Assembly (NCBI GenBank): GCA_021773815.1
Contig: JAJFJS010000035.1
Span: 1 to 64,000 of the forward strand
Direction: 5' to 3'
DNA: 64,000 bases
Source of the DNA: Gammaproteobacteria bacterium
GTDB taxonomy: Bacteria; Pseudomonadota; Gammaproteobacteria; Steroidobacterales; GCA-2729495
Positions 1 through 16,857 of the stretch are shown here, in pieces. Both the position numbers and the translations under genes were made by a program. The notes under the pieces are model-generated. The model saw only the letters and a list, made by a program, of their open reading frames with translations. It ran no database searches and was not told the DNA's origin. Positions within the stretch are counted from its first letter, which is position 1, and each line of letters opens with the position of its first letter.

Positions 1-633
1 CCCGCCCTTGCCGAGCCCGGCGACCGTACTCGACACTTTGGCCGACTCATGCCCGGCCAAGCCGCTGCCGCCGGTGTCGCGGCTCATGCCGGCGGTGTTG
101 ATGCCGCCGCTGCCCTTGCCGGCTTTCGACGTGATCATCGAGCGCTCGGTGCGTTTGGCGGCGCCGGCCGCACCGGCCAGGTTGGTCGCCTGCGTGACGC
201 TGGCCACCGCCTGATTGTCCCTGAGATCAGCGAGATCGTCGGCGAACGGCAGCAAGCCGGCAACCGACGCCTTCTTGCGCGCCTCGACGGCCCGGTCAAT
301 GGGTTTGGGTTCTTCCTTGACGACCGGTGCAGATTTCGGCTTCGGCTTCTCGACGACCTTCGGCGCCTCGAGCTCAAGCGGCTCGGGCTTCGGCCGCTCG
401 ATGACCACGGGCGGTGGCGGCGGCGGCTTGGGCTTATCAAGAATCAACTTCGCGAACCGCGGCGGCACCTTGTCGACGCGTTCATGCGTGACGTCCGGCA
501 ACGGCAGCAACGAGAACACGATGCTCAGCACCGCGCCGCCGATAACGGCCTGTTTGCAGATCCGGCGAAACAGCCGCTCTTCTTCCCGGGACGTCTCCCA
601 GGGCAGTTCATACAAGCGAAAATACGTCACCAT
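1..633 (-). CDS. AgmX/PglI-like TonB-family protein (partial, N-terminal part)
   Basis: The gene is cut by the left edge; 211 codons are visible from an ATG at 633. A short N-terminal segment is followed by one hydrophobic helix at about residues 28-46 and then a long Pro/Lys/Glu linker (several PKP and PPPPP runs, about residues 58-115), the build of a TonB-type energy transducer that crosses the periplasm. From about residue 120 the chain becomes Gly/Ala/Ser-rich. The C-terminal TonB/AgmX fold would lie outside the window and is not seen. The gene is last in a row of ExbB-ExbD-ExbD genes, 6 bp after the second exbD. This order and the linker match AgmX/GltJ-type proteins of the Myxococcus gliding machinery and related clusters. 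The exact family cannot be settled without the C-terminus. Confidence 0.75.
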   Translation of the reverse strand, partial: MVTYFRLYELPWETSREEERLFRRICKQAVIGGAVLSIVFSLLPLPDVTHERVDKVPPRFAKLILDKPKPPPPPPVVIERPKPEPLELEAPKVVEKPKPKSAPVVKEEPKPIDRAVEARKKASVAGLLPFADDLADLRDNQAVASVTQATNLAGAAGAAKRTERSMITSKAGKGSGGINTAGMSRDTGGSGLAGHESAKVSSTVAGLGKGG

Positions 634-639
634 GCGGCC

Positions 640-1203
640 TTACCCCTGTTTTCCCGCAGCAACAGATCCCGCCGCACGCGTCGCCGCCTTCGTTGCCGCC
701 TGCTGCGCCGGCGCACTCTGTAACACGGCCAGCGAGATCTGCCCGTAGTCAGCGGCGGTACACGTCGCCATCACGCGCTTGAGCAACCGGTACGGCAGGG
801 CCTTGTCGCCCATGATCGTGACCTCCCGGTCGGCGATATCGGCCATCGCATCGCGCCGCAAAACGCGATCGGACTGGCGTTGCAGCGCATTACGGAGTTC
901 ATCAATGACCAGGTCCGGCTGCGCCATGACGTCGGCAACCCGCGCTACCGGGCTGCCCTGCACGAGAATCTCCTCGCCGGTTACCATGATGACGACGTTT
1001 TCACGCGCCTTCTGTTCAGCAATTGATTCGGGCAGTTGCAGATCCCTTGCATTCGGCAGCACCTCAACCTGCGCCGAATTCACGAGCAGGAAGAACACGA
1101 GGATCGTAAATATATCCATCAGCGACACGAGGTTCAGCACGACCGTCTTCTTGCCCCGGTCGTTGCGTCGTTTCATGCGCTTGGCGCGGTGTGACATCTT
1201 CAT
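640..1203 (-). CDS. ExbD/TolR-type ion-channel subunit (second copy)
   Basis: Predicted 187 residues, one N-terminal transmembrane helix and a periplasmic domain, the ExbD/TolR layout. Around residues 28-47 the helix reads SLMDIFTILVFFLL; the Asp sits where TolR and ExbD carry the proton-transferring aspartate. A basic stretch (KRMKRRNDRGKK) before the helix fits N-in topology. The ATG at 1203 is preceded by GGAG at 7 nt; a TTG six bases further upstream is less likely. It lies 12 bp after another exbD-like gene and upstream of the TonB-like gene. Together with the ExbB-like protein it should form an ion-driven motor. The Ala-rich C-terminal tail is longer than in typical ExbD. Confidence 0.88.
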   Translation of the reverse strand: MKMSHRAKRMKRRNDRGKKTVVLNLVSLMDIFTILVFFLLVNSAQVEVLPNARDLQLPESIAEQKARENVVIMVTGEEILVQGSPVARVADVMAQPDLVIDELRNALQRQSDRVLRRDAMADIADREVTIMGDKALPYRLLKRVMATCTAADYGQISLAVLQSAPAQQAATKAATRAAGSVAAGKQG

Positions 1204-1215
1204 CGTCAAACTCCG

Positions 1216-1719
1216 TTAACCGGCCTTGCCGCGGACCGGCGCATCGCCGATCGAGATTTCGGGGAACAGCTCCGCCTGAATGACGGCATCGCCGGGCCCG
1301 GTGGCCTCGTACACGCGTACCGCGTCCATGACCTTGACGAGCACGTCGTAGGGCACATCCGCTTCGAGCAGCACGCTCGCATCGACCTTGTCCGGATATT
1401 TCGCCTTGATGCGCTTGAGGTAGTCATTCAGGCCGGCAAAGTCATGGCCGTCCGCCGTCACCGGCAGGCCCGTCAACAGGCCCGCATTGCGTTCGCCGAC
1501 CTCGAGCCGGTCGCGGCGCACGATGACTTCGAACTGCGGCGTCTCCGGTTCGGCCCCGGGCTGATCATTCGAGGAGGGAAGATTCAGCTCGAGGATCGCC
1601 ACCTGCGAGAACACGGCCGTAATCAGCAGGAACGGAACCAGGATCACCATCAGGTTCATGAATGCGGTGATGTTCAGTTCCACCGCCTCATGACGATGCC
1701 GGCTGTGGCGCTTGCTCAT
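1216..1719 (-). CDS. ExbD/TolR-type ion-channel subunit (first copy, Asn at the Asp site)
   Basis: Predicted 167 residues with the ExbD/TolR layout: His/Arg-rich cytoplasmic start, one helix at about residues 18-38, then a periplasmic domain. The helix reads ITAFMNLMVILVPFLL. Compared with TolR (PLLDVLLVLLLIF), the protonatable Asp is replaced by Asn, while the neighbouring exbD-like gene keeps it. The ATG overlaps the stop of the ExbB-like gene (ATGA at 1716-1719), so the two are likely translationally coupled. Heteromeric ExbD-type pairs such as AglQ/AglS are known from Myxococcus gliding motility. The Asn suggests that this copy has a structural or regulatory role rather than carrying protons. 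Confidence 0.88.
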   Translation of the reverse strand: MSKRHSRHRHEAVELNITAFMNLMVILVPFLLITAVFSQVAILELNLPSSNDQPGAEPETPQFEVIVRRDRLEVGERNAGLLTGLPVTADGHDFAGLNDYLKRIKAKYPDKVDASVLLEADVPYDVLVKVMDAVRVYEATGPGDAVIQAELFPEISIGDAPVRGKAG

Positions 1720-2369
1720 GCGGGCTGACCGGTCGCCGTCCGACGCTCATCGACCGCATTGAGGAATTTGACCGAGGCCATCTCCAGGCTGTCGACGATT
1801 TCCGTCGTCTTGCTCTGCAGAACCGTATGAATCAGCAGCAGCGGTATCGCGACCATGAGCCCGAACGCCGTGGTGTTCATCGCGACCGAGATGCTCGCCG
1901 ACAACAGGTCCGCCTTCTCGGCCGGATTCGCCGAGGCGACGGCCGTGAACGCGTTGATCAGGCCGATGATCGTGCCGAGCAGGCCGAGCAGCGTCGCGAT
2001 ATTGGCAAACGTCGCCAGGTAGTGCGTGCGCTTCTCAAGTCGCGGCATGACCTCCATCAGGCTCTCTTCCATCGCCTTCTCGATGTCGTCCCGGCGCGCA
2101 GCCGACTTGATGCGATTCAAGCCATAGGTCAGGATCTGCCCGATCGCACTGTGCGACTTCGACGTCACCGTTACCGCCTGCTGAAAGTTGCCGGCCTTGA
2201 TGTGCGGCGTGATCTTCTTCCAGACCATTCGGTTGGTCAGGCTCGTTTTGCTCAGATACAGATAACGCTCGATCGATATCGCCAACCCCAGCGTCAGCAC
2301 GATTACGATCGGATACATAAATACGCCGCCTTCCTGAAAGAAACCGACGATGCCTTCATAAATAGTCAT
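1716..2369 (-). CDS. MotA/TolQ/ExbB proton-channel protein
   Basis: Predicted 217 residues and three transmembrane segments (about residues 15-33, 118-140 and 160-182), as in TolQ/ExbB. The signature TLLGLLGTIIGLINAF and the third-helix motif SVAMNTTAFGLMVAIPLLL are characteristic; the Thr residues in these helices line the ion path in ExbB/TolQ. The start ATG has GGAGGG about 9 nt upstream. The gene is followed directly by two exbD-like genes and a TonB-like gene and preceded by TPR-protein genes. This resembles aglR-aglQ-aglS-type motors more than a siderophore exbBD locus, because no TonB receptor or iron gene is adjacent. Confidence 0.92.
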   Translation of the reverse strand: MTIYEGIVGFFQEGGVFMYPIVIVLTLGLAISIERYLYLSKTSLTNRMVWKKITPHIKAGNFQQAVTVTSKSHSAIGQILTYGLNRIKSAARRDDIEKAMEESLMEVMPRLEKRTHYLATFANIATLLGLLGTIIGLINAFTAVASANPAEKADLLSASISVAMNTTAFGLMVAIPLLLIHTVLQSKTTEIVDSLEMASVKFLNAVDERRTATGQPA

Positions 2370-2429: not shown

Positions 2430-2771
2430 TCACTCTCCGTTGTCGGATCTTCCGGACCCGTACAATTGATCGAAATACCTGATTTGTCTTAGAAACACAT
2501 CACGGTCTACGGGTGCGAGCACCTCGTCGACGAGGCTGTTGACCGGCTTGCCGACGATATCGCCCAGATGCGGCTCCTTCCACGGCACGATGTAAAGCAC
2601 CCGCGGCAGTTCCCGGTTGCCGCGGATCGACGTCGAGTCGAGCAGCAACTGGTCGGCCGCGACGCGCGCCTCGGCTGGCGGCGGCGACGGTTCGGTTTCA
2701 TCGGCGGCGTGACCGGTCGTGACGACCAGTCCGACCAGCAACGACAACGCCCCGAATAACATTCTGTTCAT
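2430..2771 (-). CDS. Small exported protein of unknown function in the motor operon
   Basis: Predicted 113 residues. The N-terminus (MNRMLFGALSLLVGLVVTTGHA) is a clear Sec signal peptide with an AxA-like cleavage site, so the mature protein is periplasmic and about 91 residues. No catalytic motif is recognised; the mature part is mostly acidic with a region of LPRVLYIVPWKEP. The ATG overlaps the stop of the upstream TPR lipoprotein gene by four bases, and the ExbB-like gene begins about 60 bp downstream, so it belongs to the operon. It may be a small periplasmic partner of the motor. A longer in-frame start at 2837 exists but would bury the signal peptide. Confidence 0.72.
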   Translation of the reverse strand: MNRMLFGALSLLVGLVVTTGHAADETEPSPPPAEARVAADQLLLDSTSIRGNRELPRVLYIVPWKEPHLGDIVGKPVNSLVDEVLAPVDRDVFLRQIRYFDQLYGSGRSDNGE

Positions 2772-3403
2772 GGCGTACCCCCGACCCGTGCCGCGCGATC
2801 CGGCTGACCGACGCGCCTCTGCAGATCGATGATCCATCGGTGCACTTCTTCGAGATCCGCATTGGCGGCCTCATGCGCGACGTAGTCCTCGTAATAACGC
2901 AACGCGAGTTCCGGCCGGCCGAGGTACAGGTCGTACAGGATGCCGAGGTTGTAATAGGCCAGCGCATACTCCGGATCGGCCTCAAGCGCCCGCAGGTAGG
3001 ACTGTTCGGCCGCGCCAAACTGTCCGCTGCGGCGCTGCGAGATGCCCAGATGGTTATAGGCCGGTGCGCATTGCGTGCACACCGTCACGGCACGCGCGAA
3101 GGCCGCTTCGGCGGCGTCCGGTCGGCCATTACGGCCATAGATGATGCCCAGGTTGACCTGCGCGCCGGCATAGTCCGGGTAGGTCTCGCCGAACGTCTCC
3201 AATGCCTGCTGGGCGCGCGTGTCGTCACCGGCATCCATGAAGCCGAGCGCCCGCGCATAACGGTTCGTCACCGCCGATGCATAGCGTTCACCGTCGACGG
3301 GCTGGCGATCCATACCGAGCCAACTGCAGCCGCCGGCCAGCAACACGACGACCGCGAGCGCGACGCGTTCAATCAATGCCCGTTTAATCGATAATGGCGA
3401 CAA
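2768..3403 (-). CDS. TPR lipoprotein
   Basis: About 211 residues. A hydrophobic N-terminus ends in the lipobox LLAGGC, so the protein is probably an outer-membrane lipoprotein. Residues about 50-190 form four or five tetratricopeptide repeats (for example AQVNLGIIYGRNGRPDAAEAAFARA and AYYNLGILYD). Two starts are possible: GTG at 3412 directly abuts an AGGA, whereas TTG at 3403 has AGGAG at 8 nt and is preferred here. It overlaps the end of the upstream large TPR gene. TPR lipoproteins (AglT/GltE) occur in the Myxococcus Agl/Glt complex, which the operon context recalls. The scaffold role is inferred. Confidence 0.82.
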   Translation of the reverse strand: MSPLSIKRALIERVALAVVVLLAGGCSWLGMDRQPVDGERYASAVTNRYARALGFMDAGDDTRAQQALETFGETYPDYAGAQVNLGIIYGRNGRPDAAEAAFARAVTVCTQCAPAYNHLGISQRRSGQFGAAEQSYLRALEADPEYALAYYNLGILYDLYLGRPELALRYYEDYVAHEAANADLEEVHRWIIDLQRRVGQPDRAARVGGTP

Positions 3404-6188
3404 GACGCTCACTCCTCTCGACCTTGGCGTAACGCGCCGGCATCAGTTCGGCCAGCCGGGCGAAACTTTTCTGTATCCATTCGTCATAGATGCCGTCCTG
3501 CGTCCGCGCGGTGTTTTGCAGCAGGATATCGATCGCCTGTTCCTCGAACGGGAAGGCCTGCTCCTCGAGCAGGATGTCGTACTGTTCGAGCTCTTCGGCG
3601 CCCAGGCCGCCTGGGCGCTCGGACGCCATCAGGTCCTGGCTCAGCACAAAATACAGGTCGGCAATTTCCCAGGTCGCGGCTGTCGTGACTTCCGCGATAC
3701 CGTAGTCGGCGGTCCCGCCGTACGCGGCCAGCGCGTATTCCATGTGCTTCTTCTTGCGTTTCAGGCTTTCTTTCAGCGGCGCGACAAGCTTCACATCACG
3801 GAACGCATCCCGCACCGGACCGGCCAGTTCGAGTGAAGCGCGGGCCGCCAGCGTCCGGCTGCGATCGGTGCGCGCGGCGCCGGCCTGTGCGTCGGCCGTC
3901 ACGATCTCGTTCAACCAGCGCAGCCGGTCGCCACGGTCGTTGCCGGCCGCAGCAATATCAACCAGTTTCTGGCGCGCCTCCAGCGCCTCGTCAAACGGCT
4001 CGGGAAAACGCGTCACGATGTCGATATAGACACGGCGCTCGTCGGCCGGCGCACCCGCGCCCGCATAGAGTTCCGCGGCCTGCCATAACGCCTCGCGATG
4101 CAGTTCGGGGCCGGCTGCATCGAGACCGGCGATGCGCACGTATTCGGCGGCGGCATCCGTCGTCCGGCCGGACTCACGGTAGGCGACGGCCAGTTTCTGC
4201 GTGACATCGTCACCGAATGCATGGTCCGGAAAGTCCTGCCGAAACCGCTCCAGTACGGTGACCGCATCGGTCCATTGCGTACCGGCGATTAATAGGGTCG
4301 CCGCGTCGAACATCGCATTCGGCACGAAGGTCGCACCCGGCGCCGCGACGCCGACCCGCAGGAATCCGCCAACGGCCAGATCGGTTTGACCGGCATCCCG
4401 GTCCAGTTCGGCCTGACGATAGACCGAGGCCGCGACGCGTTCGGTAATCTCCGCAACCGCGGCGGCATCGGCGACCGGATATTCCAGCAGGCGCTGATAG
4501 GCCCGCTCCGCCTGCCGGTAACGTTTGCGTTCGAAGTTTGCATGCGCGATCACGGTCCACGCAGTCTGTTCGTATTGCGGCGCGGCCGGCGGCAGGCGCG
4601 TCACGACGAGTCCGGCCACGCGCGTCGCACGCTCTTGCGCCCCGGCGGCAAACAGGTCCTCGGCCACCTTCGTCAGCACGGGGACGGCCTGCTCGTGCTC
4701 CGGAAACGCGGCGGCAAAGCGCAGCGCCTCGGCGACGAGCCCGGCCTGCCAGGCTTCGAGCGCGGCCGGCGGCAGGCTCCCGGCGTGCTCACGACTCGCC
4801 AGCAAACCGGCATACGCCGCGGCCGCGGCGCGTTCGTGCGGGCCGTAGTCGTATGCCGTGCGGCGGTATTCGACCGCGGCCTGATCGAAGAATCCCAGTT
4901 CCAGCAAGATGTCGGCCAGTAGGAAATTGCGCTCGGCTGAGTCCGGATCGTCCGGGAACCAGGCCAGGTAGCGGCGATACCACTCGACGGCCCGCAGGTA
5001 GGCCGCATCGTCATCGTCTGCCTGCGCCTGTGCGTGATCAAACGCCGCCAGGTCGCTGAGGCTTTCCTTCACCACGGCGACGACGGTCGGATGATCGGCC
5101 CGCTCACGCCCGTTCCAGAACTCAGCATCCATGCCGTACAGCGTGACAAACGCACGCTTGGCCTCGAGCACGCGGCTCGGGAACTGCGCCAGCGTATAGG
5201 CCTCGATAACCTTGAGCTGCAATGCCGGCGCGCGTTCATGCGTCGGCGCCCGCGCGACGAATGCCGCATAGGCCTGAGCCGCATCGTCGAACCGCTCCTT
5301 GTCGATATACAGGTCGCCGAGATGCGCATACAGCAGGTCGGCATAATGCACATCACCACGGTCCGCCAACAGTTCATCGATCGACAGGTGACCGTCGAGA
5401 TACGAGAAACTGATGCTCACGACGCGGAACGTATCGTCGATCAGTTCACGCTCGGGACGCGTCAGACCATCGAGCAACGCGACGGCATCTTCCGCACCGG
5501 CCATGCGTCGATCGAGCAGATCCATGAACGAGGCCAGCGATGCATCATGCCGCCCGCGCTTGAACAGGACCCAGCCGTGCTTGTACAGCGACTGCTCATA
5601 GAATGCCGACGCCGGCCCCTGCGTGATTACGGCGGCATAGGCGCCCTCCGCTTCGGCATAACGCCGGTCGACGAACAGGATCTCGCCGCGGCGAAACTGC
5701 CCCTCGGCATAGAATTTGCTGCCGGGAAAAGCCGCGATCAAACGGTCGAGCGCGGACAGCGCGCGTTCCGGTTCACCGATGGTTTCCCAGGCACGCGCGA
5801 GCTGGTACAGGATCCGGTCCGTGTCCGCATAGCCGGGATTGTTTTCAAGCAGCGCCTCGTATAGCTGCACGGCCTCGCGGAAGAAAGCATGACTGCCGTC
5901 GATCTCGCCGTCGATCTCACGTTCCTCGCCGGCCTTGAGGTTCAGGTCGCCGAGCCGGCGCAGCGCCTCGAGTTGCAGCGCCGGGTCATCGACGGGCATG
6001 TCGAGAAACAGCCGGTACTGCTCGCGCGCCAGCGCACCGCTGTCGATAACTTCGGGCTGCGCCTTGAGTTCGATATCGGGCTCTTTAAGGTCGCCGATTC
6101 GTGCCCGCCCGTCGGCATCGCCGCCGAACGGCCACCAGCCGCCGGCAAGGGTGACGGCCGTCAGCGTCGCGATCAACGGCGCCATCAT
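3384..6188 (-). CDS. Large periplasmic TPR scaffold protein
   Basis: Predicted 934 residues. A short hydrophobic N-terminus (MMAPLIATLTAVTLAGGWW) looks like a signal sequence. The rest is almost wholly alpha-helical solenoid made of tetratricopeptide repeats; examples are RILYQLARAWETIGEPERALSALDRLIAAFP and AEGQFRRGEILFVDRRYAEAEGAYAAV in consecutive register near residues 120-190, with further repeats through about residue 720. The C-terminal 150 residues are less repetitive. It starts on ATGATG overlapping the stop of the upstream TPR gene. The size and position recall GltD/AgmU, the large periplasmic TPR protein of Myxococcus gliding machinery, but TPR similarity alone is weak evidence for orthology. 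Confidence 0.85.
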   Translation of the reverse strand: MMAPLIATLTAVTLAGGWWPFGGDADGRARIGDLKEPDIELKAQPEVIDSGALAREQYRLFLDMPVDDPALQLEALRRLGDLNLKAGEEREIDGEIDGSHAFFREAVQLYEALLENNPGYADTDRILYQLARAWETIGEPERALSALDRLIAAFPGSKFYAEGQFRRGEILFVDRRYAEAEGAYAAVITQGPASAFYEQSLYKHGWVLFKRGRHDASLASFMDLLDRRMAGAEDAVALLDGLTRPERELIDDTFRVVSISFSYLDGHLSIDELLADRGDVHYADLLYAHLGDLYIDKERFDDAAQAYAAFVARAPTHERAPALQLKVIEAYTLAQFPSRVLEAKRAFVTLYGMDAEFWNGRERADHPTVVAVVKESLSDLAAFDHAQAQADDDDAAYLRAVEWYRRYLAWFPDDPDSAERNFLLADILLELGFFDQAAVEYRRTAYDYGPHERAAAAAYAGLLASREHAGSLPPAALEAWQAGLVAEALRFAAAFPEHEQAVPVLTKVAEDLFAAGAQERATRVAGLVVTRLPPAAPQYEQTAWTVIAHANFERKRYRQAERAYQRLLEYPVADAAAVAEITERVAASVYRQAELDRDAGQTDLAVGGFLRVGVAAPGATFVPNAMFDAATLLIAGTQWTDAVTVLERFRQDFPDHAFGDDVTQKLAVAYRESGRTTDAAAEYVRIAGLDAAGPELHREALWQAAELYAGAGAPADERRVYIDIVTRFPEPFDEALEARQKLVDIAAAGNDRGDRLRWLNEIVTADAQAGAARTDRSRTLAARASLELAGPVRDAFRDVKLVAPLKESLKRKKKHMEYALAAYGGTADYGIAEVTTAATWEIADLYFVLSQDLMASERPGGLGAEELEQYDILLEEQAFPFEEQAIDILLQNTARTQDGIYDEWIQKSFARLAELMPARYAKVERSERLVAIID

Positions 6189-8086
6189 GGCGTCGCACCT
6201 TCGCCATCCGCGGCAGCGCCCGCGGCCGCCACCGCCGTCCGGTCGTAGATTGTCGCGAGCGCAAACCGCGCCTGTATCCGGTAGCTGGCCAGACGGCGTT
6301 TCTGCGCCTCGAGCTCGTCGGCGATCATCGCCTGCAGGTGCGTCTCCTGACGCTGCAGCACCGCATCGATACGGGCCTGCATGGCCTCGATGCGCGGTTG
6401 CAGCGCCGCGATACGCATCTGTTCGGTTTCCAGTTCCACGGGCCGATCGGCGCGCGCGAGGCGGGCGCTGGCGGACAGTTCAGCGGTCGCCGCGAGGCCG
6501 CGATCAAGTTCGGCCAGGTTGCGACGAGCCTGCCACAGTCGATAGCGATAGTCCGCGTCGAGCCGCCACCACAACACGCCCTTGAGCACCCGCTGACGGT
6601 CACGCGCGGCGGCGGCCTGTGGCGCCTGCCAAGCGGGACTGGATTCCAGCGCCGCCAATCGGCTCCATTGCTCGGCCTCGGTCTTGTCAGCCAGGCCGAC
6701 GACATTGCGCTCGGCCTCAATCATGTCCAGCGTCAGCGCAAAGTCGTCGCGCCGTGACCGCAGTTCAGCCGGATCGATGCCGCCGAAACGCCGCTCGATC
6801 CTCGGCAGCCGCTCGGCATGTGCCAGTGAACGCGTGTCAACCATGTTCTCGAACACGGCCAGCTTGTCGCGCCAATCGGTCAGGTGCTCGCGCAGTGCGA
6901 CGAGGTCACGATAGCTGCGCAACCCGTCCTGAAACGTGTGATCCGCGACGAGCCGGTACAGGTACCGGGCATCGTCTGACTCCGGCAGGTGATCGAGTTG
7001 CCAGTGCCAGCGGCCGATGGTGCGGTCGTCATCGGCCAGCAGTGCCGGAACGATGCGGCCCGTCCGGGCCCGCACGACCGCCGCATCAAGACCGGCCAGC
7101 TCCCGATCGAAACTCACCATCGCCCCGACGTAGTGTTCGGCCGCCGAGCCGTCGGCGCCGATGCGACCGAAAGCATAGGGAATCGCCAGCAGCGATTCCT
7201 GCACGGCGCTGTCGAGCGGATCACGGTTACTCAGTGCGAGCCACGGCGTCAGCGCCTGCCGATAGTCGGCCTGCAGGACATCGGCCCAGCCGACGCCGAG
7301 CAGCGCCTTGTTCGCGTGCGGGCCGTTGAGGCGAATGCGCTCCAGCACTTCCCGGGCACGCTCACCGTCTTGTGCATGCAGATACGCAAAGCCGAGCGCC
7401 AGGTTCGCCTTATCGCGCAATGCCAGCAGTTCCGCGTCGTCGCTGCGCAGTCTTCCGACCCGATCAAGTTGCGCCGTGCCTTCGGCGTCGCGCGCCAACC
7501 GCACGAGCGCTACGCCCAGGTTGAAACGCACATACGCGAGCCAACCACCGTCCGACCGGACCGTTTCGAGCCGTGCGGCCGCATCGTCAAAACGACCCTG
7601 CGCCATCAGGCTCTGGGCGCGCAGCATCTCGTGTTCATCACGCAGCGCCGCGGTCAGCTGCGTACCGACCCGCTCGAACGCTGCGTCGGCCTCGGCAAAC
7701 AGGCCGCGCTGATAACGGGCCTTGCCGATAAAATGCCACGCGCGATCATGCACCGCCGGATCCGCGGACTCGGCAAGCAATCGATCGAAGATGGCCGTCG
7801 CCTGATCCGTCTGGCCGTACGACAAATAGAGTCCGCCGAGCAGCAACTCCGCGTCGACCGCATGGCGCGTCACGCGGCCGGCCTGGCGCGCCGCAAGCAG
7901 GTGGGTCAGCGCCGTGAACTCATCCTGCTGGTAGAAATGAAACAGCACCTCACCGTAATGCAGGTCGCGAATGGCACCGCCGCGCTCGCCGGCCGTGGCC
8001 GGCCCGGCAAAAGTCAACAGCCACGCGACGGCAAGCCATGCGCCATTGGCCATCGCGATCGATCGGTTGTGTGCGTTACGAGGCAA
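6185..8086 (-). CDS. Exported TPR protein
   Basis: Predicted 633 residues with an N-terminal signal (hydrophobic stretch ANGAWLAVAWLLTFAGPATA). Residues about 35-280 contain tetratricopeptide-type helical repeats (LLLGGLYLSYGQTDQATAIFDRLL and following). The C-terminal third (about 440-610) is rich in charged helices and is probably coiled coil. The TTG at 8086 has GGGAG at a good distance and lies just after the previous stop; an ATG at 8053 is the alternative and gives a shorter signal n-region. The gene overlaps the next TPR gene by 4 bp. Probably a periplasmic scaffold of the motor complex; no enzymatic motif is visible. Confidence 0.82.
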   Translation of the reverse strand: MPRNAHNRSIAMANGAWLAVAWLLTFAGPATAGERGGAIRDLHYGEVLFHFYQQDEFTALTHLLAARQAGRVTRHAVDAELLLGGLYLSYGQTDQATAIFDRLLAESADPAVHDRAWHFIGKARYQRGLFAEADAAFERVGTQLTAALRDEHEMLRAQSLMAQGRFDDAAARLETVRSDGGWLAYVRFNLGVALVRLARDAEGTAQLDRVGRLRSDDAELLALRDKANLALGFAYLHAQDGERAREVLERIRLNGPHANKALLGVGWADVLQADYRQALTPWLALSNRDPLDSAVQESLLAIPYAFGRIGADGSAAEHYVGAMVSFDRELAGLDAAVVRARTGRIVPALLADDDRTIGRWHWQLDHLPESDDARYLYRLVADHTFQDGLRSYRDLVALREHLTDWRDKLAVFENMVDTRSLAHAERLPRIERRFGGIDPAELRSRRDDFALTLDMIEAERNVVGLADKTEAEQWSRLAALESSPAWQAPQAAAARDRQRVLKGVLWWRLDADYRYRLWQARRNLAELDRGLAATAELSASARLARADRPVELETEQMRIAALQPRIEAMQARIDAVLQRQETHLQAMIADELEAQKRRLASYRIQARFALATIYDRTAVAAAGAAADGEGATP

Positions 8087-8092
8087 CCGCGG

Positions 8093-8635
8093 TCACTCCC
8101 ACTCCCGGACACGGAACTCCGGCTGCTGCTTGCTGACCTTGTCGGAAATCTGCAGTTCGACGTACTTCGCGCCGATCCGCTTGTCGAAGGCCAGCGTCGC
8201 GCCACGCCGGTAGTCGCGGCCGTGCGGCCCGATGCCGGTGAAAATCGCCACGAGTTCGTGATCGCCGGCCTTCAGGTTGCCCAGGAAGAGTTGCTGCACG
8301 CCGCCGCGATGCAGGGCATCGACCTCACGTTCCGTGTACAGGTAGTTCGCGACCGGCTTGTCGTCGAGCCGGAGTTGCACCGAATCGAGCGCGAAGAACT
8401 CGCCGACGTCCATCGACACGAAGACGGCAACCTGCGTATTTGCCGGGTACAACAATTCCTCTTCGAGCATGAACAGCTCGCGATTGAGGTCGAGCACCGC
8501 ACCCTTGAGCGTCTGCACCTCGGCATCGAGACTGACCGGCTGCAGATCGGCAGCGAGACCGGGCATCGCCGGCAATATCGCGAAGCACGCCGCAGTCACG
8601 CAGGCTCGTATGAAAAATCGAACGATAGGAGTCAT
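8093..8635 (-). CDS. Exported protein of the motor operon (conserved, unknown function)
   Basis: About 180 residues from the ATG at 8635, which has AGGAAAG just upstream. The first 30 residues are a signal peptide ending near GLAA. A short coiled coil (AEVQTLKGAVLDLNRELFMLEEELL) precedes a beta-rich domain containing DSVQLRLDDKPVANYLYTEREVDALHRGGVQQLF and AGDHELVAIF, which resembles a carbohydrate-binding-like or Ig-like fold. Proteins of this type are sometimes labelled AraC-like in databases; I see no helix-turn-helix and regard that label as wrong. It lies 6 bp upstream of a TPR gene, so it is likely a periplasmic component of the same machine. Confidence 0.75.
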   Translation of the reverse strand: MTPIVRFFIRACVTAACFAILPAMPGLAADLQPVSLDAEVQTLKGAVLDLNRELFMLEEELLYPANTQVAVFVSMDVGEFFALDSVQLRLDDKPVANYLYTEREVDALHRGGVQQLFLGNLKAGDHELVAIFTGIGPHGRDYRRGATLAFDKRIGAKYVELQISDKVSKQQPEFRVREWE

Positions 8636-8679
8636 CACGCTTTCCTGTTTTTTCCGCTGTTGGGTTTTCCGCTGTGGGT

Positions 8680-9240
8680 TCATTCGGCAAGGAGATCAGC
8701 GACTTCACGCGCGTACAGCGCTTCGTCGCCGCGGCTATAGCCGTCATGGATGTGCCGCACGATGCCGTGCGGATCAATCACGAAAGTCATCGGCAGCGTC
8801 CGTGGGTCGTACAAGCGACTGACACGCTTGTCGGTATCAAACAGCACCGGAAATCCCAGTTCCCGCCTGGCCGCCTCGCGTTTGGCTGCGGCACCGTCGC
8901 CATCGACATTGACGCTGAGAACACGCAGCCCGGACGGACGATTGGCCCGCTCGATCGCATCGAGCTGCGCGAGCTGTTCACGGCAGCGACCGCAACGAAT
9001 CGACCAGAAGTTCACGATGACGACATCGCCGCGAAATTCTGACAGGCGCAGGTTCTGCCCGACGGAACTGGCCAGCGCAAAATCGGGCGCCGGCGTCGCG
9101 ACGACCGGCGGCCGCGCAGACAATGGCGCCGCCCACGCACAGGCAACGACGACGACCCGGGCCATGAAGCCGATTGCCACGTGCGTCGGCACGAGCGTCC
9201 GACTCCTGGCCATGCATTTGCTGTTCATCGGCTGCAACAC
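8680..9240 (-). CDS. TlpA-like thioredoxin-fold protein (CGRC)
   Basis: About 186 residues. An N-terminal hydrophobic segment (FMARVVVVACAWA) suggests export or membrane anchoring. The remainder is a TlpA/ResA/AhpC-TSA thioredoxin fold: APDFALASSVGQNLRLSEFRG, then NFWSIRCGRCREQ with the redox pair CGRC in place of the usual CxPC, and the cis-Pro loop LPMTFVIDPHG. The missing Pro in the active site may alter its redox potential. The start is uncertain: GTG at 9240 (or TTG at 9237) has GGGAG 5-8 nt upstream; ATG at 9228 lies too far from it. It is the first gene after the c-di-GMP riboswitch and probably the first cistron of the motor operon. Confidence 0.82.
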   Translation of the reverse strand: MLQPMNSKCMARSRTLVPTHVAIGFMARVVVVACAWAAPLSARPPVVATPAPDFALASSVGQNLRLSEFRGDVVIVNFWSIRCGRCREQLAQLDAIERANRPSGLRVLSVNVDGDGAAAKREAARRELGFPVLFDTDKRVSRLYDPRTLPMTFVIDPHGIVRHIHDGYSRGDEALYAREVADLLAE

Positions 9241-9244
9241 GCAT

Positions 9245-9310
9245 TCTCCCGTTGCGCTCCGATCCGGTTTAGCGGAGGCGCAGTAATCCTGCGAAAAGAA
9301 CAAACGGGAG
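9245..9310 (-). promoter_or_regulatory. Possible SD-sequestering hairpin downstream of the riboswitch
   Basis: On the minus strand CTCCCGTT (9310-9303) can pair with AACGGGAG (9252-9245). The second arm contains the Shine-Dalgarno sequence for the TlpA-like gene starting at 9240. It lies 40-100 nt downstream of the aptamer, where an expression platform is expected. No T-rich terminator is seen, so translational control is more plausible. Switching is inferred. Confidence 0.4.
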
Positions 9311-9352
9311 CAAGGGACGCGCATTGCACTGCGCCGCGAATCGCATCACGGC

Positions 9353-9450
9353 GGTCGGCAGCCTCGCGGTCGTGGCCCGTCCGCGGCGTGCGGTCGGAGC
9401 CTTAGATCGATGGCTTTGCGTCCCTGCCTTTCAGCAGGTTTGCCTTTTCT
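9353..9450 (-). ncRNA. Cyclic di-GMP-I (GEMM-I) riboswitch aptamer
   Basis: The minus-strand sequence has the GEMM-I hallmarks in order. GGCAAACC (9444-9437) is followed by a stem CCTGC/GCAGG closed by a loop containing the GAAA tetraloop. Next come the strongly conserved GACGCAAAGCC (9422-9412), the tetraloop-receptor-like CTAA with GGC (9405-9399), a second GC-rich arm, and a closing TGCC (9360-9357) able to pair with the first GGCA. This is the published consensus for the c-di-GMP-I class. It lies in the leader of the downstream minus-strand operon (TlpA-like, TPR, ExbBD and AgmX-like genes), about 110 nt before the first start codon. The ends are approximate. Confidence 0.88.
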
Positions 9451-9529
9451 CCATGGCAGAACCGGTTGCCTTCCGTGCGAGGCGCGGACCGGTACTGTCA
9501 CCAGTTCGCATGGTCGCAGGCAACGCCCC

Positions 9530-9557
9530 GGATTCCTGTGATCGAGGTCACGAATCC
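9530..9557. promoter_or_regulatory. CRP/FNR-family operator (TGTGA-N6-TCACG)
   Basis: The sequence TGTGATCGAGGTCACG (9537-9552) matches the CRP-family palindrome TGTGA-N6-TCACA except for the last base, and sits in a larger dyad closed by GGATTC/GAATCC. It lies about 80 nt upstream of the c-di-GMP aptamer on the minus strand, in the promoter region expected for the motor operon. CRP, Vfr or Clp type regulators are candidates; which one binds is unknown. Confidence 0.5.
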
Positions 9558-9621: not shown

Positions 9622-10602
<981 letters not shown>

Positions 10603-10690
10603 GGCGGCGATTATACCGCCCGGCTCACGGTCAACGGCACCGGGGCCAGGACACGGAGTCGACCGCAAGGCGGCAACGGTACAGATCCGG

Positions 10691-11875
10691 TCAGAACCAG
10701 ACCGAGAAATAGAGCTGCAGCACGTCGGACGCGTAGCTGTACATTGGCTCGGTGCCCGTCGCATAGAGCGGCGCTCCGCCAGAGTCCACGGCGCGCAGGT
10801 CGCGGAAGTCCGAGTAATCGTAAAGAATATGATCGTAGTGCAGATTCACCGTGGCCTTGTCGAAGAACCCCCAGCCGTCCGCGATCAGGTCGTAGCTGAC
10901 CCCGAACCGAATCGTGTGACTATCGAAGGTACTCAATTCCTTATCGCGCGCGAGGAAATTCTGCGCGCCCTGATACGGGAACAGATCACTGTAGAAATCG
11001 GCCGCGGACTGCGTGTAGAAACGATAACTCAGGTCGAACACCCAGGCCGGTCCGAGCGGATGCGTATAACCGACATCGACATTGTGCGCATCGATGCCCC
11101 ATGAGTCGGCGAAGAAACGATACCCGGCCTGCACGGCCGCACGGTACGGAAGGTAGTATCGGGTACGCAATGCGACGGCATTGCTCGACCGGGTGCGCGG
11201 ATAGACCTCGGCCTCGAACGCATAGCCCGTCGCCGATCCGCCGTCGGCATAGCGTACCTGCCGGTACGGGTTATTCAGAAAACCCTCATCGGTAATCGCC
11301 TCGTAGTTGATCCCGAGCAGCATGTTCCGCGTCACGACCTGGCTCAACCCGAGCCGGTAGTTGCGCCGGTCGGCCTCGTCGGCAAATATCCCGTCGGGCT
11401 GGCCGTCGGGTCCGTTACGATAGACATCGTCGGCACCGCGGCCATAACCCATCGTCACGGTCGTCATGCCGCCGAAAATTTCCTGGGCGATGCCGATGTT
11501 CAGCGACTGGGCTTTGTAGTCCCGCTCGGAACTGCTGGTAAAGCCCATGCTCATCAGCGTGTCGCCGTTCAAAAAATCCACGCCGACGCTGTATTCGTCA
11601 CGCTCCTCGGTATACGCACTCGCGCCGCTTGTCACGACATCGATCGACGCGCTGCTGATGCGATCGACGTAATAGTTGCCGTAGACCGACACCCGGTCCT
11701 TGATGCTCTTGCGCACGAGGATCGAGGGCCCGTCGATCTTGACACCGCCGCCGTCGTAGTAGTGATACAACGTATCGGCACGGTCGTCAGGCAATACGCC
11801 GGCGGTCGCCGCCGGGGCGGCAAGACCGATGATTCCGGTGAATAGCAGTACGAGCAGATATCGGTATGCGGTCAT
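10691..11875 (-). CDS. DUF3570 outer-membrane beta-barrel-like protein
   Basis: Predicted 394 residues with a signal peptide (cleavage near TAG). The mature protein is rich in alternating aromatic strands (for example VSVYGNYYVDRISSASIDV, YRLGLSQVVTRNMLLGINYEAI) and ends in a terminal Trp-Phe (LYFSVWF), typical of a BAM-recognised outer-membrane barrel. Overall it matches DUF3570 proteins as I know them. The start lies two bases after the stop of the DUF4266 gene, so the two are coupled. ApbE and TlpA genes next to it suggest a redox-linked envelope function; the actual role is unknown. Confidence 0.82.
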   Translation of the reverse strand: MTAYRYLLVLLFTGIIGLAAPAATAGVLPDDRADTLYHYYDGGGVKIDGPSILVRKSIKDRVSVYGNYYVDRISSASIDVVTSGASAYTEERDEYSVGVDFLNGDTLMSMGFTSSSERDYKAQSLNIGIAQEIFGGMTTVTMGYGRGADDVYRNGPDGQPDGIFADEADRRNYRLGLSQVVTRNMLLGINYEAITDEGFLNNPYRQVRYADGGSATGYAFEAEVYPRTRSSNAVALRTRYYLPYRAAVQAGYRFFADSWGIDAHNVDVGYTHPLGPAWVFDLSYRFYTQSAADFYSDLFPYQGAQNFLARDKELSTFDSHTIRFGVSYDLIADGWGFFDKATVNLHYDHILYDYSDFRDLRAVDSGGAPLYATGTEPMYSYASDVLQLYFSVWF

Positions 11876-11877
11876 GA

Positions 11878-12102
11878 TTAGTTACATCCGCAGCCGCCGC
11901 CGGCGCTGCCCGACGCACCCCGTGCGCCTTCGCGCGCTTCGTGTACATGATTGATGTAACTGCTCGAAACAGGATCGCGATCCATGCTCATGATCGGATC
12001 GGCAAGCCGATCGCGTTCGTAGGGCCGGACCCATGGCTCGACCCCGCAGCCGGCCAGCAGCAAGAGCACGAGCAGCGCGGCCGATATCCGGGCGACCGTC
12101 AT
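11878..12102 (-). CDS. DUF4266 lipoprotein with a Cys-containing C-terminus
   Basis: A 74-residue lipoprotein: signal peptide with lipobox LLLLAGC, then WVRPYERDRLADPIMSMDRDPVSSSY, the conserved part of DUF4266, and a Gly/Ser-rich tail ending GGGCGCN. The start overlaps the stop of the TlpA gene (ATGA), and the stop is two bases before DUF3570. The mature protein is only about 55 residues and has a terminal Cys-Gly-Cys pair, so it could be a metal ligand, a disulfide substrate of the adjacent TlpA, or a modified peptide. The function is not established. Confidence 0.82.
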   Translation of the reverse strand: MTVARISAALLVLLLLAGCGVEPWVRPYERDRLADPIMSMDRDPVSSSYINHVHEAREGARGASGSAGGGCGCN

Positions 12103-12617
12103 GACCGCTCCCTCGCCAGCGCACGTACCTGGTCCTGGTACTCATCCTCGTAACCGGGCTTATAGCCGTGATGCAGGTAGCGAACGTTGCCCTGGCGATC
12201 GATCAGCACGGTACTGGGCATCGCGACAACGTCGTACAACTTGCTGATACCGTTGTCCGGGTCATACAACACGGGAAAACTGACCGGTCGCTCCGCGATG
12301 AAGGCCTGCCCGTCAGCCGAATTCTCCTCAACATTGATGCCTAGCAGCGTGAAGCCGAGCGGCTCGTAGCGCTGATGAATCTGTTCGAGCAGCGGCATCT
12401 CCTGGCGGCACGGACCGCACCAACTCGCCCAGAAGTTGATCATCACGACCCGACCGCGCAGATCACTGAGCGTGACCGGCCGACCATCGACATCGGTCAG
12501 CGTAAAATCGGGCGCCGCCGCCTGATCCGCGGTCCACGCGGGCAACGACGCGCCCAGCGACAGGATCAGTGTCGCGATCAGCATTCGGCACCGGGCCTGC
12601 ATCGTCAATGTATTCAT
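12099..12617 (-). CDS. TlpA-family thiol:disulfide oxidoreductase
   Basis: About 172 residues. The ATG at 12617 follows GAGGAGAAG closely; a TTG directly before it is the alternative. An N-terminal signal or anchor ends near AWTA, and a thioredoxin fold follows: APDFTLTDVDGRPVTLSDLRG, the active site NFWASWCGPCRQEMP and the cis-Pro loop AMPSTVLIDRQG. CGPC is the classical redox pair. It overlaps the DUF4266 gene, whose product ends in Cys-Gly-Cys, so it may keep those thiols reduced in the periplasm. The second TlpA-like protein nearby (8680-9240) has CGRC and is probably a paralogue. Confidence 0.9.
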   Translation of the reverse strand: MNTLTMQARCRMLIATLILSLGASLPAWTADQAAAPDFTLTDVDGRPVTLSDLRGRVVMINFWASWCGPCRQEMPLLEQIHQRYEPLGFTLLGINVEENSADGQAFIAERPVSFPVLYDPDNGISKLYDVVAMPSTVLIDRQGNVRYLHHGYKPGYEDEYQDQVRALARERS

Positions 12618-12641
12618 CAACTTCTCCTCGCGATCCGTCGC

Positions 12642-14020: not shown

Positions 14021-16654
14021 TCAGTCCAGCGGTGCGTCGAACGGATTGTTAAAATACTGGCCGCCGATGTCGAGCCACTCGGCAATGAGACGCAATTCGT
14101 GGTCGCTCAGGTAATTCTCGTGCGTACCGCCGGTTGCAAAACGATTGAAGAACGCACCCGAGGCGAGTGCGCCGGCCGTCGACATCGGGCGACCGACCGA
14201 GACCGGTACGAGGATCGGGTCGCCGGTATCCGGATCGACACCGACCTGGATCAGGCGATCCTGCAGCGCGCCCATGACGAGTTCCTGTTCGTTATCAGCG
14301 AACATCAATTCGCGATAGGACAGGAAATGATCGGGTTGCTCGACCGACGGACCGTCGGTCAGTTCGAGTTGTCCGGCCGGCACCTGCAAGACCGTCGCCA
14401 CATCGCGGTTGTTGTGACAAAGCGTGCAGGTAATATCCGTGACGTTGTCGGCCGCCAGCCTGGGCCAGTTCCACAGCGGGTGGATATGCATCTCGTAGTG
14501 AATCACGGTGCGACAGCGGTTTGTCCAGTCGGCCTGGCAGGCCAGCGTGGCCGGTGCCGCTGTATCGAGATCCTGATAGGTCAGCGCATAGCTCGCATCT
14601 TTCACACGACCGGCGGCGATTTCATCGGTCCAGACATCAACATAGCGAACGTCGACGGACGGCGTGATCGCAGCGCAATCGGTGGCGCAACTGATACGCG
14701 CCCGCGCCTCGGCCATCGTTTCGCCGAAATCGGCGAAGATCGCCGGATCCGTATTCGGAAACGGTGCACTCGTCGTCAGCGCGCCGGCATAGGCGGCATC
14801 GAACGCATCGGCACGGCCATGCGACTCGCCGGTGCCGGTCTCGTGGCAACCGTTACATGACAGCGTGTCGCCCGGCCGAACCTGTAACCAGCTCTGGTGC
14901 CGCGGCGAGGTTCGCCGGCCGCGAGCGTCCACGACGCTGATCGCCAGCGCGACATCGGCGGGCACCTTGGCAATGACCGAACCGTCCGGCTCGATTGGCA
15001 CATAACCGATAATCTCGCGCATGCCCTGGGCCGCGGATCGCCCGAAAGCGGTATTGGCAAAATCGCGCGTGTCATCATCGGGGATCGACACGGCCTTGAC
15101 GATACGCAGGAAGCGCGCCGGCCGGCCGGCAGCCAGCGTCTGCGCAGGATCGGCAAGCGTCGCGATATCCGGATTCGCCGTATCGACCCCGTCGATATCG
15201 TAGACGCTGCGGATCTTCAACAAGCCGACGCCTTCATCGATCAAGGTTTGATCGAGTTCGCCGGTCGTATCCCGGTCGTAGATCAACGTCGGCAGATCGC
15301 GCGGCTGCGCCGCGACGATGTCGGTGAAGACCATGCCCTCTTCGGGCGGCAGGACCGGCAGCTGAGTGCCGTCGGTCGGGCTAACCATCCACAGTCCGAA
15401 TAGCGGATTCGCCGCGACGGCTGCCGGGTCGGCCAGGCGGGCGGGCGTGCACGGGACCGGCGCCGGGGGAACGGCGGTCTGATCGAGCAGCCGACACTGG
15501 CTCCAGCTCACGAGAATCCGGCCCGTGCCGTCCCACAGCGGGAACGCGGCGCCGAACGTCCCGCCGGGCGAGATCGAACCGTCGGTGCGCACATCGTTGA
15601 CCGTCGCGGCTATCTGGGCCGGACCGGTCAGGATGCCGCGGTTCGGCGCGGCCGGCTGCACATTCTCGAGATATTCGGCGACATCAATCGTGACGATCTC
15701 GCCGCCGAGGCGCGACGTCGTGAACGGGCGCAGCAAGGCCATGATCGAACCATCAAGCATTTCGCGGGGCTGGGCGAACTGGACCGTCGCACCGCCGGTG
15801 CCCGTCGCGTGACTGTTCGCACCGTAGAGCAACTGCTGGTCGGTGCCGTCGGGGTTCATCACGTACAGATTGAACCCGTTGCGCCCGCCCATATTGTCCC
15901 AGCGCGAGAAGACGATCCGACCGTCGCTGAGGACCAGCGGATCGGTATCGTGACTCTGGTTGAACGTCACCTGGTGAATATCGCTGCCGTCTTCATTCAT
16001 GACATGCAACGTGAATGCAAACTCATTGCGATTCTCGTCGAGCGCCGCAAACTGGGGTTTGCCTTCATCGAGCAGAATCGCATTGGACTGGCGCTGTCGG
16101 GTCGAAGCGAAAATGATCCGGCCATCGGCCAGGTAATGCGGCGCGATATCGTGTCCCGCTGCGGCGCTGATATCGGACTCGATGAGTCGACGCAGGCTCT
16201 CGGTATCGAGGTCGTATTCCCAGATATTCCAGGTCGGCTGATCTTCTTCGTCGGCATTCTCGATAAACTGCGCGCGCATGGCGAACAGGATGCGTCGACC
16301 GTCGAACGATGCCTCCAGGTCACGCACGTCACCGAGGCCCTGCGTCTCGGCCGCCGTGATGTTGCGCTCGGTTGCGCTCGGCGACGCTCGGTCACGGATA
16401 TACAGGTCGGCGCCGATATCGAAAGTAATCAGCGAGCGCAGGTCCGACGACTGCACAGCGCCCTGGCCGTCGATCGCCAGGGGTTTCTTGACGTAGGCCA
16501 CCGGAATATCGAGCACGACCGGGTCGGGTCCCTGCCCTCCGGCCAGATCCACACCTCCGCCGCCGCCGCCGCAGCCGGTCAGGCAGATTGCAACAATTAA
16601 CAGCACGCACCCACGAGTCAAACTCGTGATGCGACTGCACGCCCATACAGCCAT
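14021..16654 (-). CDS. HzsA-related multihaem lipoprotein with beta-propeller
   Basis: About 877 residues from the ATG at 16654 (GGGGA upstream). Signal peptide with lipobox CLTGC followed by a Gly run. Residues about 60-420 contain repeats of the TolB/PD40 propeller type (for example YLADGRIIFASTRQRQSN, VLSDGRIVFSRWDNMGGRNGFNLYVMNPDGTDQ). The C-terminal half has two CxxCH haem-binding motifs, CNGCH (about residue 600) and CTLCH (about 740), and two further Cys clusters. Family resemblance is to proteins labelled hydrazine synthase alpha-related; with no other anammox gene present, hydrazine chemistry is unlikely. It is divergent from the cytochrome/LamG/Tat gene set at 16858-22221. Confidence 0.8.
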   Translation of the reverse strand: MAVWACSRITSLTRGCVLLIVAICLTGCGGGGGGVDLAGGQGPDPVVLDIPVAYVKKPLAIDGQGAVQSSDLRSLITFDIGADLYIRDRASPSATERNITAAETQGLGDVRDLEASFDGRRILFAMRAQFIENADEEDQPTWNIWEYDLDTESLRRLIESDISAAAGHDIAPHYLADGRIIFASTRQRQSNAILLDEGKPQFAALDENRNEFAFTLHVMNEDGSDIHQVTFNQSHDTDPLVLSDGRIVFSRWDNMGGRNGFNLYVMNPDGTDQQLLYGANSHATGTGGATVQFAQPREMLDGSIMALLRPFTTSRLGGEIVTIDVAEYLENVQPAAPNRGILTGPAQIAATVNDVRTDGSISPGGTFGAAFPLWDGTGRILVSWSQCRLLDQTAVPPAPVPCTPARLADPAAVAANPLFGLWMVSPTDGTQLPVLPPEEGMVFTDIVAAQPRDLPTLIYDRDTTGELDQTLIDEGVGLLKIRSVYDIDGVDTANPDIATLADPAQTLAAGRPARFLRIVKAVSIPDDDTRDFANTAFGRSAAQGMREIIGYVPIEPDGSVIAKVPADVALAISVVDARGRRTSPRHQSWLQVRPGDTLSCNGCHETGTGESHGRADAFDAAYAGALTTSAPFPNTDPAIFADFGETMAEARARISCATDCAAITPSVDVRYVDVWTDEIAAGRVKDASYALTYQDLDTAAPATLACQADWTNRCRTVIHYEMHIHPLWNWPRLAADNVTDITCTLCHNNRDVATVLQVPAGQLELTDGPSVEQPDHFLSYRELMFADNEQELVMGALQDRLIQVGVDPDTGDPILVPVSVGRPMSTAGALASGAFFNRFATGGTHENYLSDHELRLIAEWLDIGGQYFNNPFDAPLD

Positions 16655-16857
16655 TCCGTGTCCCCGGCATTGCACTCGTCGGCCGTCAGTGTGCTGAGCC
16701 TGCCGAACGAATATACGAGGTAGATAACTTAATACAGGTAAATTTCGGGAATCCGTTAACGTGATCACAGAAACCCGAAACAGTTCACGAGATAAACCCA
16801 GACGTGCTGCGCACTTTGTTGCTCACGGGGTTGTTGTTGGTGAATTGCTTTCTGAAA

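Follow-up and report, generated by a model that had tools for sequence, protein, structure and literature searches.

A c-di-GMP-I riboswitch was found on the minus strand of the window (the whole stretch of DNA analyzed here, 64,000 nucleotides), at the head of an operon for an Agl/Glt-like envelope motor, and it is likely that this operon is transcribed from a cAMP-CRP class II promoter starting near position 9503, with c-di-GMP gating the translation of its first gene, tlpA. In the proposed mechanism, cAMP-CRP bound at 9552-9537 would activate transcription from about 9503 in class II geometry, the transcript would then fold the aptamer, and binding of c-di-GMP would alter access to the tlpA ribosome-binding site ∼100 nt downstream. 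Such a CRP promoter combined with ribosome-binding-site control would mean that cAMP sets transcription and c-di-GMP sets translation and, with a c-di-GMP sensor placed behind a cAMP promoter, that two "stay or go" signals probably govern production of the machine. Promoter and switch would indicate the conditions under which the gammaproteobacterial Agl/Glt-like core complex is made and would offer a direct handle for turning production of the motor on or off in a relative that can be cultured, in search of a phenotype. As far as our searches tell, the conserved tie of an RF01051 aptamer to a motor operon, together with a CRP-type promoter, is new: in a mostly non-subscription literature no paper containing both "c-di-GMP-I riboswitch" and "ExbB" was found, and no such link appeared among the matches listed (title and start of abstract) for GEMM-I or riboswitch with TPR, AglR/TolQ, TonB, or gliding motility or for AgmX/ExbD with TPR.

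Scanning of the whole window with cmscan (Rfam 15) placed the c-di-GMP-I (GEMM-I) aptamer (RF01051) at 9454..9354 on the minus strand with 73.3 bits (cutoff, 35; E 1.8e-12), the match covering model positions 1 to 87 of 87 without truncation, and no other Rfam family rose above its gathering score anywhere in the window. The original prediction had drawn a GEMM-I aptamer on the minus strand at 9353-9450 and proposed an Infernal/Rfam search as the check; its coordinates lie within four bases of the match, and the search returned RF01051 well above threshold. The aptamer occupies the space separating the end of an apbE gene (9622) from the start of a gene run that reaches from a TlpA-like to a TonB-like protein. 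It is a convincing and unremarkable representative of RF01051, with the GAAA tetraloop and CUAAG present. Like Vc2 of Vibrio cholerae, it has the full-length model, the GAAA tetraloop, and the selectivity G and is located in an envelope-operon leader whose ribosome-binding site is far off, a distance also cited for Vc2 (PMC9262584); unlike the RF01051 consensus, it has CACG rather than uAuG as the 3' receptor half and a longer terminal loop, and its target, a TlpA/TPR/ExbBD/TonB-like motor operon, also differs.

The statement that the aptamer lies in front of a motor operon was confirmed by the next minus-strand genes, which encode a TlpA/ResA-like thioredoxin (8680..9240; start candidates 9240 GTG, 9237 TTG, or 9192 GTG), an exported protein, U1, without a Pfam or NCBIfam family (8093..8683), three TPR proteins, a (6185..8086), b (3384..6188), and c (2768..3412), a small conserved protein, U2, without a family and with a signal peptide by eye (2430..2837), a MotA/TolQ/ExbB proton channel (1716..2369; PF01618, 108 bits), two ExbD/TolR proteins (1216..1719 and 640..1209), and a TonB-like protein (1..633), whose gene is cut because the window starts at the contig end. 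The nearest PDB sequences of the ExbB protein were TolQ/ExbB, and no PDB match was found for TPR protein b. The name AgmX, given earlier to the last protein, could not be retained, since its TonB matches fall far below the curated cutoffs (a full-length relative has a TonB_N match, also below the cutoff) and agmX (gltJ) is confined to Myxococcales and Bdellovibrionales in the account of PMC3169522; for the latter reason, GltG-like is a better guess. The Agl/Glt core complex (aglRQS, gltCDEG) is described there as seven genes comprising a TolQ/TolR-like motor, TPR, and TonB-like proteins, plus one additional gene (PMC3169522). The same set, ExbB with two ExbD, three TPR, a TonB-like, and an extra gene in one cluster, is found in the window operon, with a weak TonB-like assignment, and the motor thus resembles the core complex, the likeness being one of gene set alone; unlike the window operon, the core complex comes with no mention of a riboswitch in the consulted portion of PMC3169522. 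U1 is possibly the "additional gene" of that complex (PMC3169522). Its predicted structure, a helix plus a beta-sandwich, was discarded as an uninformative clue (mean pLDDT, 76; best PDB match, E 1e-3 and TM 0.30). A sample of 274 genomes from the class contained 58 with a U1 relative, three of them from the window's order.

To describe the distribution of this arrangement, U1 was sought in 147 genomes of the order and found in 87, and RF01051 was found in 105 of the 147 by a search whose filters miss weak matches. Up to 20 kb was fetched around each of 100 of the 106 U1 matches outside the window's own genome (those left being G057 twice, G063:C409, G141:C7, G003:C72, and G072:C61), giving 81 loci of a window-like system 1 and 19 of a paralogous system 2 (about 35 to 43% identity). 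The core order U1-TPRa-TPRb-TPRc-U2-ExbB-ExbD-ExbD-TonB-like was kept among the system 1 loci listed, with members occasionally under detection (e.g., TPRc in L058). The 1.70 Mb around the 100 loci contained 41 aptamers, 40 of which were on the U1 strand; for comparison, the whole own genome (3.87 Mb, 149 contigs) contains seven. Counting the window, 77 of 82 system 1 loci were assessable (L039, L059, L080, L090, and L108 having too little upstream sequence), and a riboswitch was present in 32 of the 77, 24 in the tlpA leader and eight ∼7 kb upstream; these counts include L047 as a leader match of only 25.3 bits (E 0.0035, 49-nt stretch) and take as negative L114 (f10) and L116 (f12), which have no leader aptamer and whose sequence ends before the haem gene. 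Leader-type aptamers stand roughly 680 to 920 nt before U1, and the eight far-upstream ones precede a haem-lipoprotein gene (HZS-alpha/PD40-like) in loci where HZS-SH3-OMP-TlpA-DUF3570 runs directly into U1 without the intervening apbE and second tlpA. The riboswitch thus follows the operon head.

At the family level, the riboswitch was present in 16/18 loci of the window's own family, f1 (the two exceptions being one genus), in 4/4 of f2 (three leader, one upstream), in 3/3 of f4, in 3/3 of f10 and 4/4 of f12 system 1 loci reaching far enough upstream, and in 2/10 of f11, and it was not detected in f3 (0/1), f5 (0/3), f6 (0/8), f7 (0/17), f9 (0/2), or f16 (0/2). Family f5 contradicts a fixed rule: its upstream module is fused to U1, yet no aptamer was seen. 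In system 2, all five f12 loci have an aptamer about 240 to 320 nt before U1, and none was found in 13 other assessable loci. On a tree of U1, ExbB, and TPRb (quick method; 97 rows, made up of the window and the loci in which both U1 and TPRb were matched), riboswitch presence needs at least six changes in system 1 and seven overall. Considering the family distribution and this tree, the riboswitch appears to be of long standing in one major section of the order, to be missing or lost elsewhere, and to be tied to the operon head. The link between riboswitch and motor operon that had been proposed for the window alone holds across 32/77 assessable loci and most of its own family. A second set consisted of those 80 of 418 GTDB loci that were most similar to U1; it yielded 32 aptamers, all on the U1 strand, and 22 of them represent new riboswitch loci, because 10 share the U1 stretch letter for letter with the first set. 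Titles in these 80 loci include MAGs labelled Woeseiaceae, Steroidobacteraceae, Nevskiales, and Lysobacterales, MAG labels being unsafe; contigs titled Halobacteria (L175), Janthinobacterium (L183), and Candidatus Planktophila (L203) also carry U1 and probably come from contaminated or wrongly labelled bins. No aptamer was found within 1.5-kb flanks in 27 loci from other orders, a span that a position 7 kb off would escape, and seven riboswitch-less loci showed no other RNA family at gathering score.

Upstream of the aptamer, on the minus strand, lie a CRP-type palindrome, CGTGACCTCGATCACA (9537..9552), which agrees with TGTGA-N6-TCACA at 9 of 10 positions, and an extended −10 element, TG-nn-A-nn-AT (9510..9518), which would place the transcription start near 9503; this promoter was no part of the original prediction. 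Class II CRP-dependent promoters carry TGTGA-N6-TCACA at a set distance from the −10 element, and the window sequence has this geometry. All 24 leader-type loci had a palindrome scoring 8/10 or better within 200 nt (0.84 expected from dinucleotide shuffles), and 17 of them had one scoring at least 9/10 (0.05 expected), compared with only three of the eight far-upstream loci at 8/10 or better (0.4 expected). In an alignment of 22 sites (omitting L057 and L110, the L048 site being hand-picked over an equal-scoring one), all 22 had A at +30.5 and T at +34.5 relative to the palindrome centre, 17 had T at 26.5, and 18 had G at 27.5, while the letters between the palindrome and the −10 element were not conserved. 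With a matrix built without the window, the site at 9537-9552 scored 32.2, compared with 16.5 for the next best in the window, and the composite motif GTGA-N6-TCAC-N19-TGnnAnnAT occurs once in the 3.87-Mb genome, at 9510-9551, its reversed control occurring nowhere in it. A general scan for the sigma-70 consensus detected no promoter between 9150 and 9700. The genome encodes CRP (equivalog match of 315 bits; cutoff, 266), one class III cyclase, and 17 GGDEF domains, and the sequence data suggest that the operon promoter depends on CRP. The CRP protein is nearest to E. coli CRP (261 bits) and then to Vfr (256 bits), which makes a Clp-like, c-di-GMP-binding CRP less likely (199 bits to 3iwz, which we take to be Clp).

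Promoter and riboswitch do not always travel together. A matching promoter was found by matrix in 12/17 assessable f7 loci, all without a riboswitch, and, at a score of >15 in the second set, in 7/22 new riboswitch loci and 9/37 new riboswitch-less loci, so that each element occurs without the other as well as in combination with it. The promoter score and spacing of L190 in that set equal those of L041, of which it may be a near copy. No promoter score exceeded 12.3 in the 27 loci of other orders. The two elements stand together in the window's own family, and in L091 (f2) the CRP site and the aptamer both precede the haem gene. In the paralogous system of f12, a CRP-like palindrome lies exactly 38 nt ahead of all six pre-U1 aptamers (five loci), with scores of 8, 8, 9, 10, 10, and 10 of 10. 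V. cholerae gbpA similarly has a CRP-driven promoter followed by a predicted GEMM-I leader, Vc1, and differs in its target gene (PMC4545359); since the effect of c-di-GMP on gbpA transcription is reported there to be independent of Vc1, gbpA is no demonstration of a working two-layer gate (PMC4545359).

With respect to the switching mechanism, an intrinsic terminator was rejected as the expression platform because no terminator-like site was detected on the minus strand between the aptamer and tlpA, and control at the ribosome-binding site is proposed for the same reason. Switching thus probably acts at the level of translation, as modelled below, and Rho-dependent control may operate. Two candidate strands were recognized on the minus strand. 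The first, GCGTCCC (9314..9320), is the exact complement of the aptamer core GGGACGC; GCGTCC occurs in 9/24 leaders (2.62 expected), in seven of them 28 to 34 nt past the aptamer, a pattern only suggestive of a switching strand because its carriers are relatives of one another. In several leaders, GCGTCCC pairs with the Shine-Dalgarno (SD) region. The second, CTCCCGTT (9303..9310), is a candidate anti-SD strand by sequence and fold, pairing in the minimum-free-energy fold with the probable SD region AACGGGAG (9246..9253). Across 22 leaders, SD/anti-SD duplexes were somewhat better than in shuffles (chi2 66.0, df 44; in-gene control, 35.9), with single-leader P values of <0.05 in 2/22 leaders and 1/22 in-gene controls, and the window duplex alone was not significant (P = 0.157). 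The probability of the aptamer without ligand exceeded 0.5 in 4/21 leaders and was 0.28 in the window, where SD access was equal in both states (0.07 and 0.06). Starts in these leader tests were chosen by rule, except that those of the window and, in the duplex test, of L044 were set by hand; L047 and L057 were outside both tests, and L044 was outside the forced-aptamer test. Three f10 aptamers (L111:3879-3961, L101:3814-3897, and L097:16032-16114) are directly followed by a T run (5 to 8), and for this reason transcriptional control may apply in f10.

The modelling points weakly to c-di-GMP turning the operon off: forcing the aptamer lowered SD access by >0.05 in eight of the 21 leaders and raised it in one, and Vc2 is described as a translational OFF switch (PMC9262584). 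Both observations speak against the opposite direction, in which c-di-GMP would free the ribosome-binding site (or block Rho) and the motor would be made in the sessile surface state. That ON switch nevertheless keeps a considerable chance, if somewhat short of an even one, a rating set slightly higher on account of the Vc2 reporter whose expression was raised by c-di-GMP, as cited in PMC4545359. Both directions occur among GEMM-I switches (PMC9262584), the window leader conceals its SD region even without the aptamer, and pilM and PEP-CTERM-like genes stand under the same aptamer class in the own genome, all of which favours activation.

The riboswitch might instead govern tlpA alone, with the motor genes using their own downstream promoter, a reading that we consider improbable. 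The genes follow one another closely on a single strand, overlapping or separated by short gaps; f10, f12, and one f2 genome lack this tlpA, and there the riboswitch heads a longer gene run; and in the paralogous f12 system, no tlpA match lies between the aptamer and U1.

GEMM-Ib aptamers, which sense 3',3'-cGAMP, have A at position 20, whereas the base that we take to be equivalent to G20 of Vc2 is G in all 23 aligned aptamers (seven from the own genome and 16 from relatives); the base taken, on the same assumed numbering, as C92 is likewise invariant (23/23). GEMM-Ib specificity was rejected on this count, and because of the G at position 20 the aptamer is assigned to the c-di-GMP type rather than the cGAMP type and is predicted to bind c-di-GMP, so that the ligand named at the outset is backed as far as a sequence can do so. 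In the kinds of genes it precedes, the window aptamer does resemble the Geobacter GEMM-Ib switches, which stand before cytochrome, pilus, and polysaccharide genes (PMC6456294), and G20 is described as contributing to selectivity without acting as a hard filter (PMC9262584); with G in every aligned aptamer and a G20A mutant seen bound to cGAMP, it is very improbable that cGAMP is the ligand here.

Covariation analysis of the 41 aptamers found by the model built here revealed that 95.8% of 831 cells were paired and that 13/21 helix pairs had changed on both sides; none of 500 shuffles reached any of five covariation measures, and in slid versions of the alignment only 32 to 58% of cells paired. 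As this alignment was fitted to the model, the count is biased by it; an independent RNAalifold fold of the first 23 aptamers gave double changes in 16/21 pairs. The window aptamer itself contributes one compensated change (U-A, compared with C-G in 22/23 rows) and has one nonstandard helix pair (A-C). That the riboswitch is a hitchhiker kept by descent, with no role in the operon, is hardly credible: largely vertical inheritance fits the tree, with its at least six changes in the system 1 part, and many relatives lack the element, but the aptamer covaries while the sequence between elements has diverged, and its position shifts with the operon head.

The gene that ends upstream of the aptamer is the last of a minus-strand haem/flavin module. 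It encodes an ApbE flavin transferase (9622..10764; PF02424, 266 bits) and is preceded by genes for a DUF3570 protein with one [S/T]GA[S/T] motif (10691..11875), a small lipoprotein ending in CGCN (11878..12102), called DUF4266-like by resemblance and its CxC end and not by a model, a TlpA-like thioredoxin (12099..12620), a beta-barrel-like outer membrane protein (12642-13310; match just under the cutoff), an SH3-domain protein (13280-14017), and an HZS-alpha-domain/PD40-like lipoprotein with two CxxCH haem motifs (14021..16768). The four gene types of the ApbE-DUF3570-thioredoxin-DUF4266 flavinylation clusters thus adjoin the riboswitch (PMC8238504), the DUF4266-like member being recognized by its CxC end. 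Unlike those clusters, the window adds a haem lipoprotein and has one [S/T]GA[S/T] motif in DUF3570 rather than two, and ExbB, TPR, riboswitch, and c-di-GMP are absent from the main text of PMC8238504. In f10, f12, and L091, the motor operon and most of the module form a fused gene run headed by a single riboswitch, which ties the motor to a flavin/haem outer membrane module previously catalogued separately. In several f11 loci the module lies nearby on the opposite strand, and in f6 and f7 no part of it besides apbE was found within the stretch upstream of the motor.

Module and motor may serve one surface function, given that they share a riboswitch at their head in f10, f12, and L091 and are also fused to each other in f5. 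It is a speculative and rather doubtful extension of this that they form a single energised surface redox/contact machine, jointly gated by cAMP at the promoter and c-di-GMP in the leader; if it were true, the gammaproteobacterial Agl/Glt-like core complex would be placed in a regulatory context, and its role would be linked to the decision between swimming and living on a surface. The original prediction took c-di-GMP control as support for a surface role of the machine, a step that the evidence does not establish. In Gammaproteobacteria, the matching gene set is clustered, its function is given as unknown, and it is considered unlikely to drive motility alone (PMC3169522), and the machine occurs without the riboswitch in several related families and in the other orders sampled.

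The six other aptamers of the own genome precede a secreted protein without a Pfam match (L001), an M23 peptidase (L002), pilM (L004), an FAD-binding/ALO oxidase (L005), and, in L006 and L007, a small protein without a Pfam match followed by TPR lipoproteins, which we presume to be PEP-CTERM-like. L001 has a 10/10 CRP-type site, and the other five have at most 7/10. The aptamers at L006:1501-1610 and L007:1501-1617 have GCAA/GCGA loops and long P3 loops and stand before small secreted proteins. In several genomes of the order, two GEMM-I aptamers share a strand at a spacing of a few hundred bases (e.g., L120:10094-10181 and 10745-10831; G011:C28:111525 and 111764). Three system 2 loci (L124:149-236, L126:10810-10897, and L131:271-357) have a further GEMM-I aptamer past the motor genes, which in L126 and L131 precedes another protein with a signal peptide by eye; the one in L126 is accompanied by a separate CRP-type site of 10/10.
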